Positions 11,920 to 23,086 of a DNA stretch of 36,348 bases are shown piece after piece; position 1 is the first letter of the stretch; each line of letters starts with the position of its first letter. A program made the translations under genes and the position numbers. The DNA is from Pseudobdellovibrionaceae bacterium (GTDB lineage Bacteria; Bdellovibrionota; Bdellovibrionia; Bdellovibrionales; Bdellovibrionaceae): positions 1 through 36,348 of the forward strand of contig JAHBUU010000010.1 in NCBI GenBank assembly GCA_019637895.1. Direction: 5' to 3'. The notes beneath the pieces were generated by a model that was not told the origin of the DNA, ran no database searches, and saw only the letters and a list, made by a program, of their open reading frames with translations.

Positions 11920-12140
11920 GTTGTTGAAACCTTTCAGTTCATCGACACTCTTCGGAGCTTTTTCCATGGGAGGCGAGTCCTGAATCGATTCGTCCAAGGA
12001 CTTTGGTCCCGTCCGAGAGTGACTCTGAGTATGAGTGATTTCAGGACGTGAGGGTGTCATGACTTTGTCAGGACCGGCAAAGAACCGATGTCATTTTTTG
12101 CCCAAGTGGAACTAATTGACCACGGGACCTGCGAACAGGC

Positions 12141-12156
12141 TGGCATTCCTCGTGCT
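12141..12156 (+). promoter_or_regulatory. Candidate sigma-54 promoter for the TPR-flagellar operon
   Basis: TGGCATTCCTCGTGCT fits the -24/-12 consensus TGGCAYRN4TTGCW: the essential GG and GC dinucleotides are present at exactly the right spacing, with two mismatches elsewhere. It lies 38 bases before ATG 12194, so transcription would start near 12168. Sigma-54 control of rod, hook and basal-body genes is well known in polar flagellates. Confidence 0.6.
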
Positions 12157-12193
12157 ATGAAATTTTCCAGAACAAGTTGGTCTTTCAGGAGTG

Positions 12194-14956
12194 ATGGACA
12201 AGATGCCAGGATGGCGTTTGCAAATCATACTTATCGCAGTGCTTTTCTCGATGAAGGTCGAGGCGGCCCCTCTTTCCGGTTCGATGAGCTTCCAGGCGGA
12301 CACCGTGCATGCGGAGTTCGAAGGACGTCCGACTTGGAATTACACGCTCAACCGAAAATCCGACGCCGGAAAAAAATACGTCGAGCTTTTGATCGAGCCT
12401 CTGGATAAAAAATCCGTTCAAGCGATGGAAGGTTTTTCTTCGGAGTTCGTGAAGTCCGTTAAAATCCTTCCGCAGGGAACTGATGCCAAGACCTTGGTCC
12501 GTTTTGAGCTTGCCCACGATGACGTCGAGTTTTTCGACTATCTGACAGATCAGCCGTCACGATTGATCGTGGACTTCTATGTGACCGAGGCCGCGAAAAA
12601 GAAACAGGCCTCTGTGAAGCCCGTGCAGAAGGCGCCGAAAACACAGGCAAAAAAGAAAACCACAGACGTTGCTGAGCAAGAACGGAATCCAGCGGCGGAT
12701 GCCTTGAGCGTAGCGGCCAATGGGGCGCCGATCGCGCCGTCTTCGGAGGCGAAGGGTGGATTGTTCGACGGTTCAGATCCACAGTTCGAGCGTTTCGGAA
12801 TCAAGGATTATGAAATCAAAGAAGACGCGATTTTGCGCGCCCGGGACAACGATTATATTCCGTTCCCGATGCTCTTTAGTGGAAACGACGCTCTTGAGCA
12901 GGTGAAGCAAGCAAAGCCGATCTACGAGATCGCGCCAAAGTCCGGTGACGAAGAGAACAAGATGGCCCGTTTGCTTTTGACCTTGTTCGAGCGGAAACGT
13001 GATTCCGTCTATTTGAAAACTTTGACTTGGTTCAACGAAAAGTATCCGGACTCGCGTTACAATGACCTTTTGGCTTATCTGACCGGTGATGTTCATCTTC
13101 GAAAATGGGAAGAAAGCGGCCGTCTTGAGGACTATGAGCGGGCGATTCAGGCTTACCAAGAAGCCGTTCGAAAGTATCCGAAGGCGCCGCCCGCGGAACG
13201 CACCTCTTTGATGTTGGGAATTTTGGCGATGGATCGGGGCGACTTGATTGCGTCGATTCGGTCTTTCGATGCTCATCTCGCGAACAAGGATTTCGAAGCC
13301 AAGAATCAGTTCTCTAAGGACCTTGCAAAGCTGGGATCTGGAATTGCATACATGAAGTTGTTCCGAACCAACGAAGCTTTGCAGGCCTTCAATGAGCTTG
13401 AAAAGAGCACTTCGTATCCCGATCTTAAGGCGGATGCAGCCTATCGAAAAGGGGACGTCTACACAGCTTCAAAGCAGTATGTGAAGGCGATCGAGGAGTA
13501 TCAGAAAGCCCAGAAGGCCTATCCGGCGGGGCGAGAGTCCCATCCCGGTTCTGTTTTCAATCAGGGTGAAGCGATGTTCTGGACCGGCGATCATCGCAAT
13601 GCCTTGAATCAGTTCCGTGAGTTCGTCATGAGTTTTCCGAATGATGCCCATGCCCCGTTCGCGATGACCAGACTGGGAGAAATCCTCGATGTTCTGGGCG
13701 CGGACTCGACCCGTGTCGTCGGGGCCTTCTTGGAAACCTTTTTCCGTTACGGCGAGAATCCACGCGCGATCATCGCTCGCCTGCGTTTGCTGTCGACGCG
13801 GATGAAGAACATGAAGCCCAAGGAATCGGATCTTGCGGTCCAAGAGATCCTGTCTTTGGCCCAAAAATCGGATCTTCCAAACATCGAGCAATTCGCGACG
13901 ATTTTGGTCGCGGATGGGTACACGAGCCGCGGTGAATATCCGAAAGCGATCGATCTTTTGACAGGCTTTTATCAGAAGAACCCGACGTCTCCAGATCTCG
14001 GTCCTTTGAAAAAACGCATCGTTTCGAATATCGCCGAAAAGATGAGTCGTGAAGTCCAAGCCGGTGATTTTATCAAGGCCTTGAAGACTCATCAGCAATA
14101 TGCCGACAGTTGGCTGAAAAATACCGATCGGCTTGACGTTCAATATTCGCTGGCAAAGTCTTTCGAGCTGGCGGGCGTTCCGGTCGAGTCGCAAAAGCTG
14201 TATCAAGGTGTTTTGAACAAGATCCACTCGGCCAAAGGAACCCCCGAGGAAAAAAATCTCAGGCTCCTGAGAGATCTGCCATCCGAAGAAAGTTTGAATC
14301 TGCGACTGGCGGAAGTGGCGAACGATCAGAAGAACTATCAAAAAGCTTACGATCATCTGCGGATGATCAAAAATCCGGGAATCATGACGGACGAAGAGCA
14401 GGTCGAGCGGGTAGAGCTGGCAGTGCGTCTGCTTGAAAATCGCGGGGATCTGGATTCCGCCGTTCGTTATCTGACCGAGCTTTTGAAAGCATGGCAGGGA
14501 AAACCAGAGTTGGTCGCTCATCCTTATGCAGAGTTGGCCCGACTCGAAACAAAAATGGGTCGCAAAAAAGATGCGATCACTTCTTTGCAGAAAATTGACG
14601 TTTTGATGAAGGATTCCGGCGGCAAGGTTCCAGAGTCCGTCCATGCGGCAGCTCTTGAAGAGCTGGGGAAACTCCAGTTTGAAACCGGCGATGTTCAGGC
14701 CGCGGCTCGGACTTATGAAAATCTTCTGACGGCGTACGAGGATAAACGGCCACTGGCTTCGATCCGTTATCGTTTGGGCCGTATCCAATTCGATCGCGGA
14801 GAGATTCAGAAAGCCGCCAACATCTGGAACGAGTTCAAAGGTGAGCGAACCGAGTTTTGGAAAAATCTTGCCCAAGAACAGTTGAAAAACTCGGAATGGC
14901 GCGAGGACTACAAGCGCTACATCCAACGTATACCAGCCATGGAAAACAGGGAGTGA
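12194..14956 (+). CDS. Large secreted TPR-repeat protein heading the flagellar operon
   Basis: About 920 residues with an N-terminal signal peptide ending near VEA|APLSG. Residues about 30-125 form a beta-rich, AMIN-like domain (FEGRPTWNYTLN, YVELLIEPL, RLIVDFYV). A Lys/Ala/Gln-rich disordered linker follows at about 130-165. Many tetratricopeptide-type helical pairs fill about 280-900 (YERAIQAYQEAVRKYP, YVKAIEEYQKAQKAYP, HRNALNQFREFVMSFP, YQKAYDHLRMI, AARTYENLLTAYED). It therefore looks like a periplasmic scaffold binding peptidoglycan or protein partners. It lies 6 bases before the AAA+ regulator and leads the flagellar cluster, suggesting a role in assembling or anchoring the motor; this is an inference. 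Start options are GTG 12191, ATG 12194 and ATG 12203. AGGAG at 12187-12191 is too close for the first two and suits 12203. Confidence 0.8.
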   Translation: MDKMPGWRLQIILIAVLFSMKVEAAPLSGSMSFQADTVHAEFEGRPTWNYTLNRKSDAGKKYVELLIEPLDKKSVQAMEGFSSEFVKSVKILPQGTDAKTLVRFELAHDDVEFFDYLTDQPSRLIVDFYVTEAAKKKQASVKPVQKAPKTQAKKKTTDVAEQERNPAADALSVAANGAPIAPSSEAKGGLFDGSDPQFERFGIKDYEIKEDAILRARDNDYIPFPMLFSGNDALEQVKQAKPIYEIAPKSGDEENKMARLLLTLFERKRDSVYLKTLTWFNEKYPDSRYNDLLAYLTGDVHLRKWEESGRLEDYERAIQAYQEAVRKYPKAPPAERTSLMLGILAMDRGDLIASIRSFDAHLANKDFEAKNQFSKDLAKLGSGIAYMKLFRTNEALQAFNELEKSTSYPDLKADAAYRKGDVYTASKQYVKAIEEYQKAQKAYPAGRESHPGSVFNQGEAMFWTGDHRNALNQFREFVMSFPNDAHAPFAMTRLGEILDVLGADSTRVVGAFLETFFRYGENPRAIIARLRLLSTRMKNMKPKESDLAVQEILSLAQKSDLPNIEQFATILVADGYTSRGEYPKAIDLLTGFYQKNPTSPDLGPLKKRIVSNIAEKMSREVQAGDFIKALKTHQQYADSWLKNTDRLDVQYSLAKSFELAGVPVESQKLYQGVLNKIHSAKGTPEEKNLRLLRDLPSEESLNLRLAEVANDQKNYQKAYDHLRMIKNPGIMTDEEQVERVELAVRLLENRGDLDSAVRYLTELLKAWQGKPELVAHPYAELARLETKMGRKKDAITSLQKIDVLMKDSGGKVPESVHAAALEELGKLQFETGDVQAAARTYENLLTAYEDKRPLASIRYRLGRIQFDRGEIQKAANIWNEFKGERTEFWKNLAQEQLKNSEWREDYKRYIQRIPAMENRE

Positions 14957-14962
14957 CCGGAA

Positions 14963-15844
14963 ATGTCCGACTTTGATTTTCTTTCTCAGAAGACGCGCAA
15001 CCTCAAGATGAAAGAGGCCCTCGAGATCGGTCTTTCGACCGCGTCGTCGCCTTCGAATCTTTTGATTGTCGGTGCGAACGGGACTGGAAAGACGGCCTTT
15101 GCACGCTGGATCCATCAGACCGGCCGCTTGGGCAAGCCCATGAAATCCGTTTCGGCCCGCGAGATCCGTGAGCGCCTTCAGAATCTGACGGATGCGATGG
15201 TGGAAGCCAAGGACGGAACTCTGATCCTTGAGGATGTCGATCTGTTGCCGGAGTCTGCTCAGTTCGCCTTGGTCGAGGCTCTGGAAAACCGGGGTGGGTA
15301 TCAGACCCGTTGCCGTTTGATCTGCACCAGCCGTCGTGATCTCCGGGCTCTGGTTCGTGGGGGGCAGTTCCGACAGGATCTTTATTACAAAATCACCGTG
15401 ATGACCGTCGTGTTACCAAGCCTCGCTGAGCGCCTGGAAGACCTTGAGTCCTTGCTGCAGTTCATGATCGAAGTTCATTCGATCCTTCAGGGAAAACAAG
15501 GACTTGTCATGAGTGCCGAGGCGATGAGCTTTCTGCGGTCTTGGGACTGGCCGGGCAATATCCGCGAGATGGAAAATGTCATCGAGCGGGCCGTGACCCT
15601 GACCTCTGGAAATGTGATCGAGGGCTCCAGCATTCGGTTCGAATCCACAGAGACGGTCGAGGGTCCTGAATTTGGTCCAGGAATGTCCCTTTCCGAGGTT
15701 GAACGACGTCTTATTCTTCAGACGCTGGAGCTGACCTCGCAAAACAGAACTCGCGCTGCCCAGATGCTGGGAATCAGCATCCGCACGCTCAGAAACAAGC
15801 TGAACGAATACAAAGAGGAGGGCACTCATGAGTCTCTTCGATAA
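14963..15844 (+). CDS. Degenerate sigma-54-activator-like AAA+/Fis regulator
   Basis: 293 residues resembling the AAA+ and DNA-binding parts of FlrC/FleR/NtrC proteins, without a receiver domain. Visible are Walker A GANGTGKT (37-44), a Walker B-like GTLILEDVDLL (85-95; usual GTLFLDEI, so the acidic pair is swapped), sensor I CTSRRDL, an arginine-finger region FRQDLYYKI (136-144), sensor II WPGNIREMEN (196-205), and a Fis-type helix-turn-helix at about 247-284 (RTRAAQMLGISIRTLRNKL). The GAFTGA loop that contacts sigma-54 is absent: only about 41 residues separate Walker A and B, far fewer than usual. It overlaps flgB by 17 bases, so it is translated with the structural operon. It may be a co-regulator or partner of a full activator rather than an activator itself. 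Confidence 0.85.
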   Translation: MSDFDFLSQKTRNLKMKEALEIGLSTASSPSNLLIVGANGTGKTAFARWIHQTGRLGKPMKSVSAREIRERLQNLTDAMVEAKDGTLILEDVDLLPESAQFALVEALENRGGYQTRCRLICTSRRDLRALVRGGQFRQDLYYKITVMTVVLPSLAERLEDLESLLQFMIEVHSILQGKQGLVMSAEAMSFLRSWDWPGNIREMENVIERAVTLTSGNVIEGSSIRFESTETVEGPEFGPGMSLSEVERRLILQTLELTSQNRTRAAQMLGISIRTLRNKLNEYKEEGTHESLR

Positions 15845-16232
15845 AACGGCCCAAGCGCTCCAGACATCGCTCAACATGAGGCAGATCAAGCAAACGGTCA
15901 CCTCGAGCAATATCGCGAACGCCGAAACGCCCGGCTATCACGCGCAGAAAATGGACTTCGAGGAAGCTCTGTCGAGATCCCTCGATATCGATGGTTTGCG
16001 TTCGATGAGTGCCAATCATGGCGACCACTTCAGTGTCGGTGGAAAAACTGCTCGCGTCCGTCCCGAGATTTACGACAATCCGGAAGGCGCGGTGAACAAC
16101 GACGGGAACACGGTCGATCTGGAAAAAGAGATGTCCGCGCTCTCCGAGAACGCGATCATGTACAAAGCGGCTTTGCAACTCATCAACAAAAAGATGGCGG
16201 CGCTCAAATACGCGGCCTCCGAAGGTCGGTAA
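15828..16232 (+). CDS. flgB: Flagellar basal-body rod protein FlgB
   Basis: FlgB is a proximal-rod subunit exported through the flagellar type III system and polymerised in the periplasm. The N-terminus has the rod/hook motif SSNIANAETPGYHAQKMDFE, and the C-terminus is the amphipathic helix ENAIMYKAALQLINKKMAALK that pairs with it. The 134 residues are normal for the family. Its ATG lies inside the 3' end of the regulator gene in another frame, so it is probably translationally coupled. flgC follows after 10 bases. Confidence 0.95.
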   Translation: MSLFDKTAQALQTSLNMRQIKQTVTSSNIANAETPGYHAQKMDFEEALSRSLDIDGLRSMSANHGDHFSVGGKTARVRPEIYDNPEGAVNNDGNTVDLEKEMSALSENAIMYKAALQLINKKMAALKYAASEGR

Positions 16233-21845: not shown

Positions 21846-22298
21846 ATGAAGTTCAAATTTCCTCTTCAGAAAGTGCTCGATCACCGCATCGTCATGCAGA
21901 ATATCGCGCAAAAAGATTTCCAAGATGCCCAGGCTATTTTGCTGGAACAAGAAGGCGTCTTGCGAAAAATGATCGGCGACCTCAAAGAGGCTCGCGAAGA
22001 GGCGGGGGCTTTGGCCCTGAAAACCGCGCCAGATGCGCCTGGCCGGTGGAAACAAATACACGAATTCACCATTTTGCAGGATCGCAGGATCGAAATGCAG
22101 AGGGCTAAGGTCCGGGATGCCGAGAAATTGGTCGAGGATAAACGGGATATTTTGCGGCAGAAAGCCATTGATTCTAAAATGATGGAAAGGCTCAAAGAAC
22201 GTCGCCGTGAGCAATTCATCGAAGAGATGAAGGCCACCGAACAAAAAGACGTCGATGAGCTCAACATCTTGCGCTTTGAATCCAAGGACGGAGAATGA
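21846..22298 (+). CDS. fliJ: Flagellar export chaperone/stalk protein FliJ
   Basis: FliJ is a small antiparallel coiled coil that inserts into the FliI ring and helps couple ATP hydrolysis and proton-driven export. The 150-residue product is almost wholly helical and highly charged. It begins MKFKFPLQKVLDHR, the typical FliJ start, and has a conserved MMERLKERRREQFIEEMKATEQKDVDEL C-terminal helix. Identification rests on the N-terminal pattern, length and position after fliI. A GGAGCC ribosome-binding site precedes the ATG. It overlaps the following gene as ATGA. Confidence 0.9.
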   Translation: MKFKFPLQKVLDHRIVMQNIAQKDFQDAQAILLEQEGVLRKMIGDLKEAREEAGALALKTAPDAPGRWKQIHEFTILQDRRIEMQRAKVRDAEKLVEDKRDILRQKAIDSKMMERLKERRREQFIEEMKATEQKDVDELNILRFESKDGE

Positions 22299-23086
22299 AG
22301 AGCAATTACGATCAGTTTTTTAAGAACGCTCGCAAGGCTGCCCAAGGCGGAAAGCCGCAGGCGTCGTCTCCGAAAAAGTTCTCGATGAAAGAACCCTCTT
22401 CGTCGCGTTTCCAGATGACGGAAGCTCAGATCGAAGAACGTTTGAAAAGCAAAGCAGGCGTCCCCAAACGTCGTCGCAAGAAATCAACGCCATGGTCGTT
22501 GATCATTTTCTCGATGATCGGTCTGGCGATCGCCGGTGCGGGCATGATGCACTCTGAAAAACTCGAATTCATCCTCAAGAATATCGAAATCTCTTTCATG
22601 GGTGGAACCGCCATGGCGGAAACTCCGGCCGTCACGAAAGAGGCCGCTCCGGCAGCAGAGGCCGCTCCCGCCGTTGCCAGACAGCCGTCTTCCTCGGATC
22701 TTGATCATCTGTCTAAGCTCACTGATCGTCAGAAAGAGTTGGATGCACGGGCCGAGGAATTGGCCCGGCAGGAGATGGAACTTGGGAAGATGAAAGAAGA
22801 GCTTGAGCGCCGTCTCAAGGAACTCGAAGGGATGAGAAACCAGATTTCCGAGATCTTGGCCGAGCGTGTGAAGGTCGATGCCGAGAAAGTCGAGACCCTA
22901 GTCCAGATGTACTCGAACATGAAGCCTCCACAGGCGGCAAAGATCTTCGAGTCCTTGGACGAGGATTTGGCGGTCGAGCTCTTGAGCCGTATGAAAAAGA
23001 AGAGCGCAGCTGATATCATGAACCTGTTGCCTGCGGAAAAGGCTCAAATCTTTTCTGAAAGGTATGCGGGATACAAACGCAAGTAA
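22295..23086 (+). CDS. MotE-like membrane protein with MgtE-N-type domain
   Basis: A 263-residue protein with a basic cytoplasmic N-terminus (residues 1-65), one membrane helix at about 66-85 (PWSLIIFSMIGLAIAGAGMM), an Ala/Pro/Glu linker, and a coiled coil at about 140-205 rich in Leu and Glu. The C-terminal domain at 206-258 has YSNMKPPQAAKIFESLDEDLAVELLSRMKKKSAADIM, the signature shared by MotE, FlbB-type proteins and the MgtE N domain. MotE assists the periplasmic motility protein MotC in rhizobia, and FlbB recruits motor parts in spirochetes. Here it sits between fliJ and fliK and overlaps fliJ, so a stator- or basal-body-associated role is likely but inferred. Confidence 0.82.
   Translation: MKSNYDQFFKNARKAAQGGKPQASSPKKFSMKEPSSSRFQMTEAQIEERLKSKAGVPKRRRKKSTPWSLIIFSMIGLAIAGAGMMHSEKLEFILKNIEISFMGGTAMAETPAVTKEAAPAAEAAPAVARQPSSSDLDHLSKLTDRQKELDARAEELARQEMELGKMKEELERRLKELEGMRNQISEILAERVKVDAEKVETLVQMYSNMKPPQAAKIFESLDEDLAVELLSRMKKKSAADIMNLLPAEKAQIFSERYAGYKRK

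Follow-up and report, generated by a model that had tools for sequence, protein, structure and literature searches.

The second gene of a flagellar operon in the window, a 36,348-nucleotide stretch of contig JAHBUU010000010.1 from a Pseudobdellovibrionaceae bacterium, encodes what may be a decommissioned FlbD-like activator that now binds DNA and regulates its own operon, probably negatively; comparison among relatives leads us to hold this with about even confidence. A more specific reading is offered only tentatively, namely that the Bdellovibrio family turned a sigma-54 activator into a promoter-proximal brake on a promoter that is still sigma-54-dependent, with a new operator, the promoter element E2, arising together with the loss of the loop and vanishing with the gene, and with one genus reduced to the AAA+ lid and helix-turn-helix (HTH).

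The regulator ORF is real and conserved. It begins with an ATG about 6-7 bp after the end of a gene encoding a 921-aa TPR-repeat protein and runs into flgB (Table 1), which bears out the original prediction that it is embedded in the structural operon. Downstream of flgB lie flgC, fliE, fliF, fliG, fliH, fliI and fliJ, and further on fliK-, flgD- and flgE-type genes, fliE and fliG being identified by gene order. The ORF after fliJ (22295-23086) weakly matches FlbB, a collar protein of spirochaetes. The TPR-repeat protein, which has an apparent signal peptide, may be a flagellar motor scaffold protein; no specific solved relative was found for it. All Pfam domains of the regulator scored above the curated cut-offs: Sigma54_activ_2 (PF14532; 72 bits, 7e-20), the AAA lid (PF25601; 63 bits, 2e-17) and the Fis-type HTH_8 (PF02954; 49 bits, 5e-13). 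No receiver domain was detected in the Pfam search. Against the NCBIfam FlbD model (NF050807) the protein reaches 173 bits, where the cut-off is 750 bits, and it does not qualify as an FlbD equivalog. The window's genome lies in the Bdellovibrio family: the protein shares 49% identity with its named matches, in B. bacteriovorus and Bdellovibrio sp., and 59% with that of a genus mate.

Table 1. Features of the flagellar operon start and of the regulator, in window coordinates
Feature	Coordinates	Strand	Basis or remark
Candidate upstream activating site, TGTCA-N5-TTGTC with a weak inverted half-site, -86 from the -24 TGG	12055..12081	+	Motif conservation
E2, candidate operator: TTTTGCC at -45, degenerate copy ATTGACC at -26 from the -24 TGG	12096..12121	+	Comparative motif
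Sigma-54 type -24/-12 promoter, TGGCATTCCTCGTGCT, 50 bp 5' of the operon's first ORF	12141..12156	+	Position conserved in relatives of every class
TPR-repeat protein gene, gene 1 of the operon	12191..14956	+	Adjoins the regulator or flgB in relatives
Loop-less, receiver-less AAA+/Fis regulator, 293 aa	14963..15844	+	Gene 2 of the TPR-flgB-flgC-fliE-fliF operon
Walker A, GANGTGKT, residues 37-44, intact	15071..15094	+	Sequence, alignment
L1/GAFTGA deletion site, ~18 residues fewer than loop-bearing orthologs from Walker A Lys to Walker B	15143..15208	+	Alignment
Walker B, TLILEDVD, acidic pair DE to ED (E90-D91)	15218..15241	+	ED fixed in genera g1 and g6
Pre-sensor I loop (L2), ~8 residues missing	15290..15325	+	Alignment
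Sensor I region, TSRRDL, Asn of TTNRDL replaced	15326..15343	+	Alignment
Arginine-finger region, FRQDLYYK, first Arg (R137) kept, second replaced by K143	15368..15391	+	Sequence, alignment
Fis-type HTH, residues 240-287	15680..15823	+	Near-invariant in loop-bearing, loop-less and mini orthologs
flgB, sharing 17 bp with the regulator	15828..16232	+	ORF calls, homology

The usual definition of a sigma-54 activator rests on its ATPase and its GAFTGA loop. This loop had been predicted to be missing from the window protein, and alignment with its syntenic orthologs confirmed this, with no GAFTGA-like loop elsewhere in the regulator. Walker A had been read correctly as intact and the acidic pair of Walker B as swapped (TLLLDEIG in the loop-bearing orthologs), and the sensor II motif WPGNIRE and the Fis HTH are both present, as proposed. 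The arginine-finger region, described as intact, is so only in its first arginine, as the second is a lysine; we take R137 and K143 to be the equivalents of R162 and R168 of PspF. The receiver domain is indeed absent, but it was not lost here: no member of the ortholog group has one, the loop-bearing orthologs included, and the receiver-less state is ancestral. Three changes had gone unnoticed in the original prediction, namely the shortened L2, the replaced sensor I Asn and the second finger Arg turned to Lys. Among the hallmarks of a functional bEBP, the window protein thus has Walker A, but not GAFTGA, the DE pair of Walker B, or the sensor I Asn and both fingers. An AlphaFold2 model of the protein (pLDDT 89.5) nevertheless shows a complete AAA+ core, lid and HTH, and its structural matches include NtrC1, FlrC, ZraR and PspF as well as the non-canonical VpsR and NtrX. 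As the model is confident and its Foldseek TM scores are about 0.75-0.80 on isolated AAA+ chains (0.74-0.80 on FlrC chains), the AAA+ fold appears to have survived the deletions.

Relatives were read via flgB, taking the gene just upstream of it and not relying on similarity alone. Among 36 Bdellovibrio-family genomes with flgB, the regulator is kept in 28 (23 near full length and 5 shortened forms, or minis) and absent in 8, where the TPR gene abuts flgB within a few tens of bases. Of the flagellated genomes read from the order's other families, 21 in all, 18 encode a protein of 310-382 aa with an intact GAFTGA or GSFTGA loop in the same place; of the remaining three, one has no gene and two, in family f2, have a degenerating one. 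In L110 the loop is broken and Walker B reads KD, L113 has GAFVGA with DD, and the sister genome L117 is intact. This degeneration is independent of that in the Bdellovibrio family and less advanced. FlbD is the nearest NCBIfam family to the loop-bearing orthologs (407-420 bits).

The GAFTGA loop was found in none of the 51 Bdellovibrio-family orthologs, from 28 initial and 23 held-out genomes, so that the suggested check for conservation of the deletion among relatives came out in its favor; across these sequences the deletion is more than chance. The ED form of Walker B is fixed in every member read of genera g1 and g6, and elsewhere in the family the pair is EN, DN, SE or others. Most full-length family members still have both Walker A and the first arginine finger; G008, G015, G019 and G031 have lost the Walker A Lys. 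The regulators of genus g2 are 233-241 aa long, or just 137-141 aa, consisting of lid and HTH; one mini was predicted to fold as these two parts (pLDDT 85.7). The shortest minis start 2-3 bp after the TPR gene, and therefore have no hidden upstream half.

In a tree with 52 other bEBPs, all 48 regulators included form one clade with support 99. With the three domains above cut-offs, this clade, which includes the loop-bearing orthologs, places the window protein in the bEBP superfamily by descent; the lineage-wide L1 deletion and the kept HTH place it with the GAFTGA-less bEBPs. A tree of FlgB, FlgC and the TPR protein separates the loop-bearing families from the Bdellovibrio family with support 99, and on it the minis form one clade and regulator loss recurs. 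Synteny and trees show vertical, in-place descent from a receiver-less FlbD-like sigma-54 activator, with the sigma-54 contact loop and catalytic residues lost at the base of the Bdellovibrio family, after which the regulator would no longer open a sigma-54 promoter. The prediction that the known mechanism of sigma-54 remodeling should not operate in it has good support in the family-wide L1 loss, the short L2, the Walker B and sensor I changes and the core-less minis. Relocation of the regulator in genomes without a copy beside flgB was considered and rejected, as the search turned up, besides weaker matches, solely a GSFTGA paralog (L007 type) that is universal. This paralog (L007, 1381-2457), a second receiver-less bEBP with a similar Fis HTH, occurs across the order, including in two genomes without flgB. 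One genome of the Bdellovibrio genus (G065, genus g6), 95% complete, has no flgB match, possibly through flagellum loss or a gap.

The two halves of the regulator have evolved differently. In the segment spanning Walker A through the arginine finger, genera of the Bdellovibrio family are 26% identical vs 69% in the loop-bearing families; for the HTH the figures are 72% vs 75%. In the window genus pair the core has a dN/dS ratio of 0.27 and the HTH one of 0.05; the still constrained core of genus g6 has 0.05 (one measurable pair), and the HTH about 0.01-0.05 where measurable. As most synonymous distances were saturated, these ratios are indicative only. Because the HTH is conserved, the core has diverged and the minis are lid plus HTH, DNA binding is, on these comparisons, the conserved function, with ATP binding and the arginine finger optional at family level; what selection has preserved is the DNA binding. 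It is highly improbable that the regulator is a decaying gene with no present function: the gene has been lost in eight genera of the family and its ATPase half eroded stepwise, but the reading frame is open in 51 of 51 orthologs, the HTH ratios are low and ED is fixed across genus g6.

The core of the window protein is intact enough that it may bind nucleotides or oligomerize. In the window genus and in Bdellovibrio, the AAA+ core probably folds and is under selection, and ATP binding or oligomerization may tune DNA binding; in part of genus g2, lid and HTH would suffice. Three roles had been proposed originally. A DNA-binding repressor with ATP sensing fits best in its first half, a DNA-binding regulator; ATP sensing is not the conserved function, as several genera have no Walker A Lys and part of g2 has no core at all, but is possible in g1 and g6. 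A dominant partner of a full activator is inapplicable to the minis and possible for the window protein in mixed rings. Nothing was found for a checkpoint coupled to rod assembly.

A sigma-54 site of the form TGGCAY-N6-TGCW, whose chance of occurrence we estimate at ~0.002 per 600 bases, lies 5' of the TPR gene in nearly every genome; in G016 it has one mismatch, and the short stretch covered for G056 shows no site. The motif is retained whether the regulator has the loop, has none, is a mini or is absent altogether, and the operon is probably still sigma-54 driven. Because this promoter persists and the regulator is loop-less, another, loop-bearing bEBP would fire the operon. Alternatively, the regulator could be a GAFTGA-less bEBP working with the housekeeping or another sigma factor, possibly at other promoters, as do the NtrC of Rhodobacter capsulatus and Caulobacter or VpsR. 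These precedents have lost the same loop (PMC10274813), and the close structural matches of the model include VpsR and NtrX; however, the operon retains its sigma-54 promoter, E2 is located on it, and a scan of the operon start revealed no sigma-70 site beyond chance. We consider this alternative unlikely.

The genome of the window encodes 12 other proteins that strongly match the sigma-54 activator domain. In a screen for proteins present in flagellated genomes and absent from two aflagellate ones, the L002 type fits and the L001 type fits partly, a result that is suggestive only. One candidate activator of the flagellar operon is the L001-type protein, a response-regulator bEBP (L001, L305, L306) conserved between the genome of the window, one of Bdellovibrio and that of a loop-bearing relative; in L001 and L306 its gene adjoins one for a histidine kinase. 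A published map of Bdellovibrio attack-phase promoters stresses FliA and leaves about a third of the promoters unassigned (PMC3627812).

A candidate upstream activating site has the consensus TGTCA-N5-TTGKC and, in most cases, a position of -86 relative to the TGG, a helically phased distance. It was found in 21/24 regulator-keeping, 5/6 mini, 7/12 loop-bearing and 5/9 gene-loss genomes, with an expectation below 0.4 in each class. By genus it does not track the regulator (9/12 keeping vs 4/8 lost, p = 0.36), and its role as the regulator's exclusive operator is unsupported, as roughly half of the genera without the gene still have the site. The regulator could instead be the DNA-anchoring subunit of a mixed AAA+ ring, binding this site and recruiting a loop-bearing bEBP that makes the contact with sigma-54, similar to the heteromeric FleQ/FleT activation of flagellar genes in Rhodobacter sphaeroides (PMC7277832). 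The phasing of the site, the complete AAA+ fold of the model and the Walker A and first arginine finger kept in most full-length members would suit such a ring. It is nonetheless a rather unlikely arrangement, as the minis keep the HTH without the AAA+ core, four genomes have lost the Walker A Lys, the promoter persists where the gene is gone, and no paired bEBP was found.

In contrast to the upstream site, E2 follows the regulator. The motif, [AT]TTT[GT]CC (TTTTKCC) at -45 and often repeated at -26, occurs in 31/33 regulator-keeping genomes (4.0 expected), 7/11 with minis, 0/8 that lost the gene and 2/14 loop-bearing ones. By genus, it is present in 12/12 keeping the regulator vs 0/8 that lost it (p = 8e-6, uncorrected for ancestry). 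It should be noted that E2 was noticed after inspecting the sequences; both copies were present in all four genera fetched after that (g8, g12, g14 and g19). In a test of independent branches nearly all pairings agree, with three fully supported pairs (p = 0.25), too few for significance. Some members of g2, g4, g5 and g10 have a weaker E2 or none, and in the window its second copy is degenerate. The tandem is of no use as a genome-wide regulon marker, as other hits are numerous and mostly unshared between genomes; the single recurrent extra hit falls at the start of a thiolase-like coding frame.

E2 is likely the operator of the loop-less regulator, between the upstream site and the polymerase, an assignment that reflects correlation only. 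The recognition helix of the HTH is identical in loop-bearing relatives without E2, which argues against this assignment, and binding to E2 would therefore need relaxed specificity or a secondary site. It is also conceivable, if quite improbable, that E2 is bound by some other protein, for example IHF, and only accompanies the regulator, which itself binds the upstream site in competition with the true activator. That site is present in loop-bearing relatives with the same recognition helix and, in the window's genome, was seen together with the promoter solely at the flagellar operon, but it persists in 4/8 gene-loss genera and E2 in none. The placement of E2 would suit a brake or an architectural factor; of these, a brake, occupying promoter-proximal DNA or hindering looping, would be more likely than an IHF-like bending aid.

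One order and one locus present a full activator, a loop-less protein, a lid and HTH binder and gene loss, while the promoter stays of the sigma-54 type; this graded series makes the conversion of an activator to a simple regulator directly testable. It also implies that, in the Bdellovibrio family of predators, some activator other than the regulator fires the flagellar genes, and the annotation "sigma-54-dependent regulator" is probably wrong for such genes in this family. Loss of the sigma-54 loop in bEBPs and mixed activator rings in flagellar control are already known. What seems new is the family-wide conserved conversion at a flagellar locus, with graded loss down to lid and HTH and a linked promoter element; the literature searched held no earlier report of a loop-less flagellar regulator in Bdellovibrio.

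Caulobacter FlbD (NF050807) is the best family match of both the window protein and its loop-bearing orthologs, and shares the flagellar context and Fis HTH, but the ortholog group is without a receiver, and the window protein lacks GAFTGA and falls far under the 750-bit cut-off. FlrC of Vibrio and FlgR of Campylobacter share the AAA+ fold and the rod/hook-gene context; the structure prediction that had been suggested as a check matched NtrC1 and FlrC in this fold. Unlike the window protein, both FlrC and FlgR have a receiver and GAFTGA, and activate transcription. VpsR, TyrR and NtrX, which also combine AAA+ with an HTH, are bEBP-like regulators that have no working sigma-54 loop and do not drive this sigma factor. 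Of these, VpsR and NtrX come close to the model in structure, but all three carry N-terminal sensory domains and have different targets, in which they differ from the regulator. Fis has the same type of HTH, and the minis resemble a small Fis-like DNA binder; in contrast to Fis, they carry an AAA+ lid bundle and descend from a bEBP. A parallel in loop loss is the GAFTGA-less NtrC of Caulobacter and Rhodobacter, a DNA-binding regulator without sigma-54 and with a lineage-wide L1 deletion (PMC10274813). This NtrC keeps its receiver and regulates sigma-70 promoters, whereas the regulator described here has no receiver, its target operon is of the sigma-54 type, and its relatives lose the whole ATPase core.
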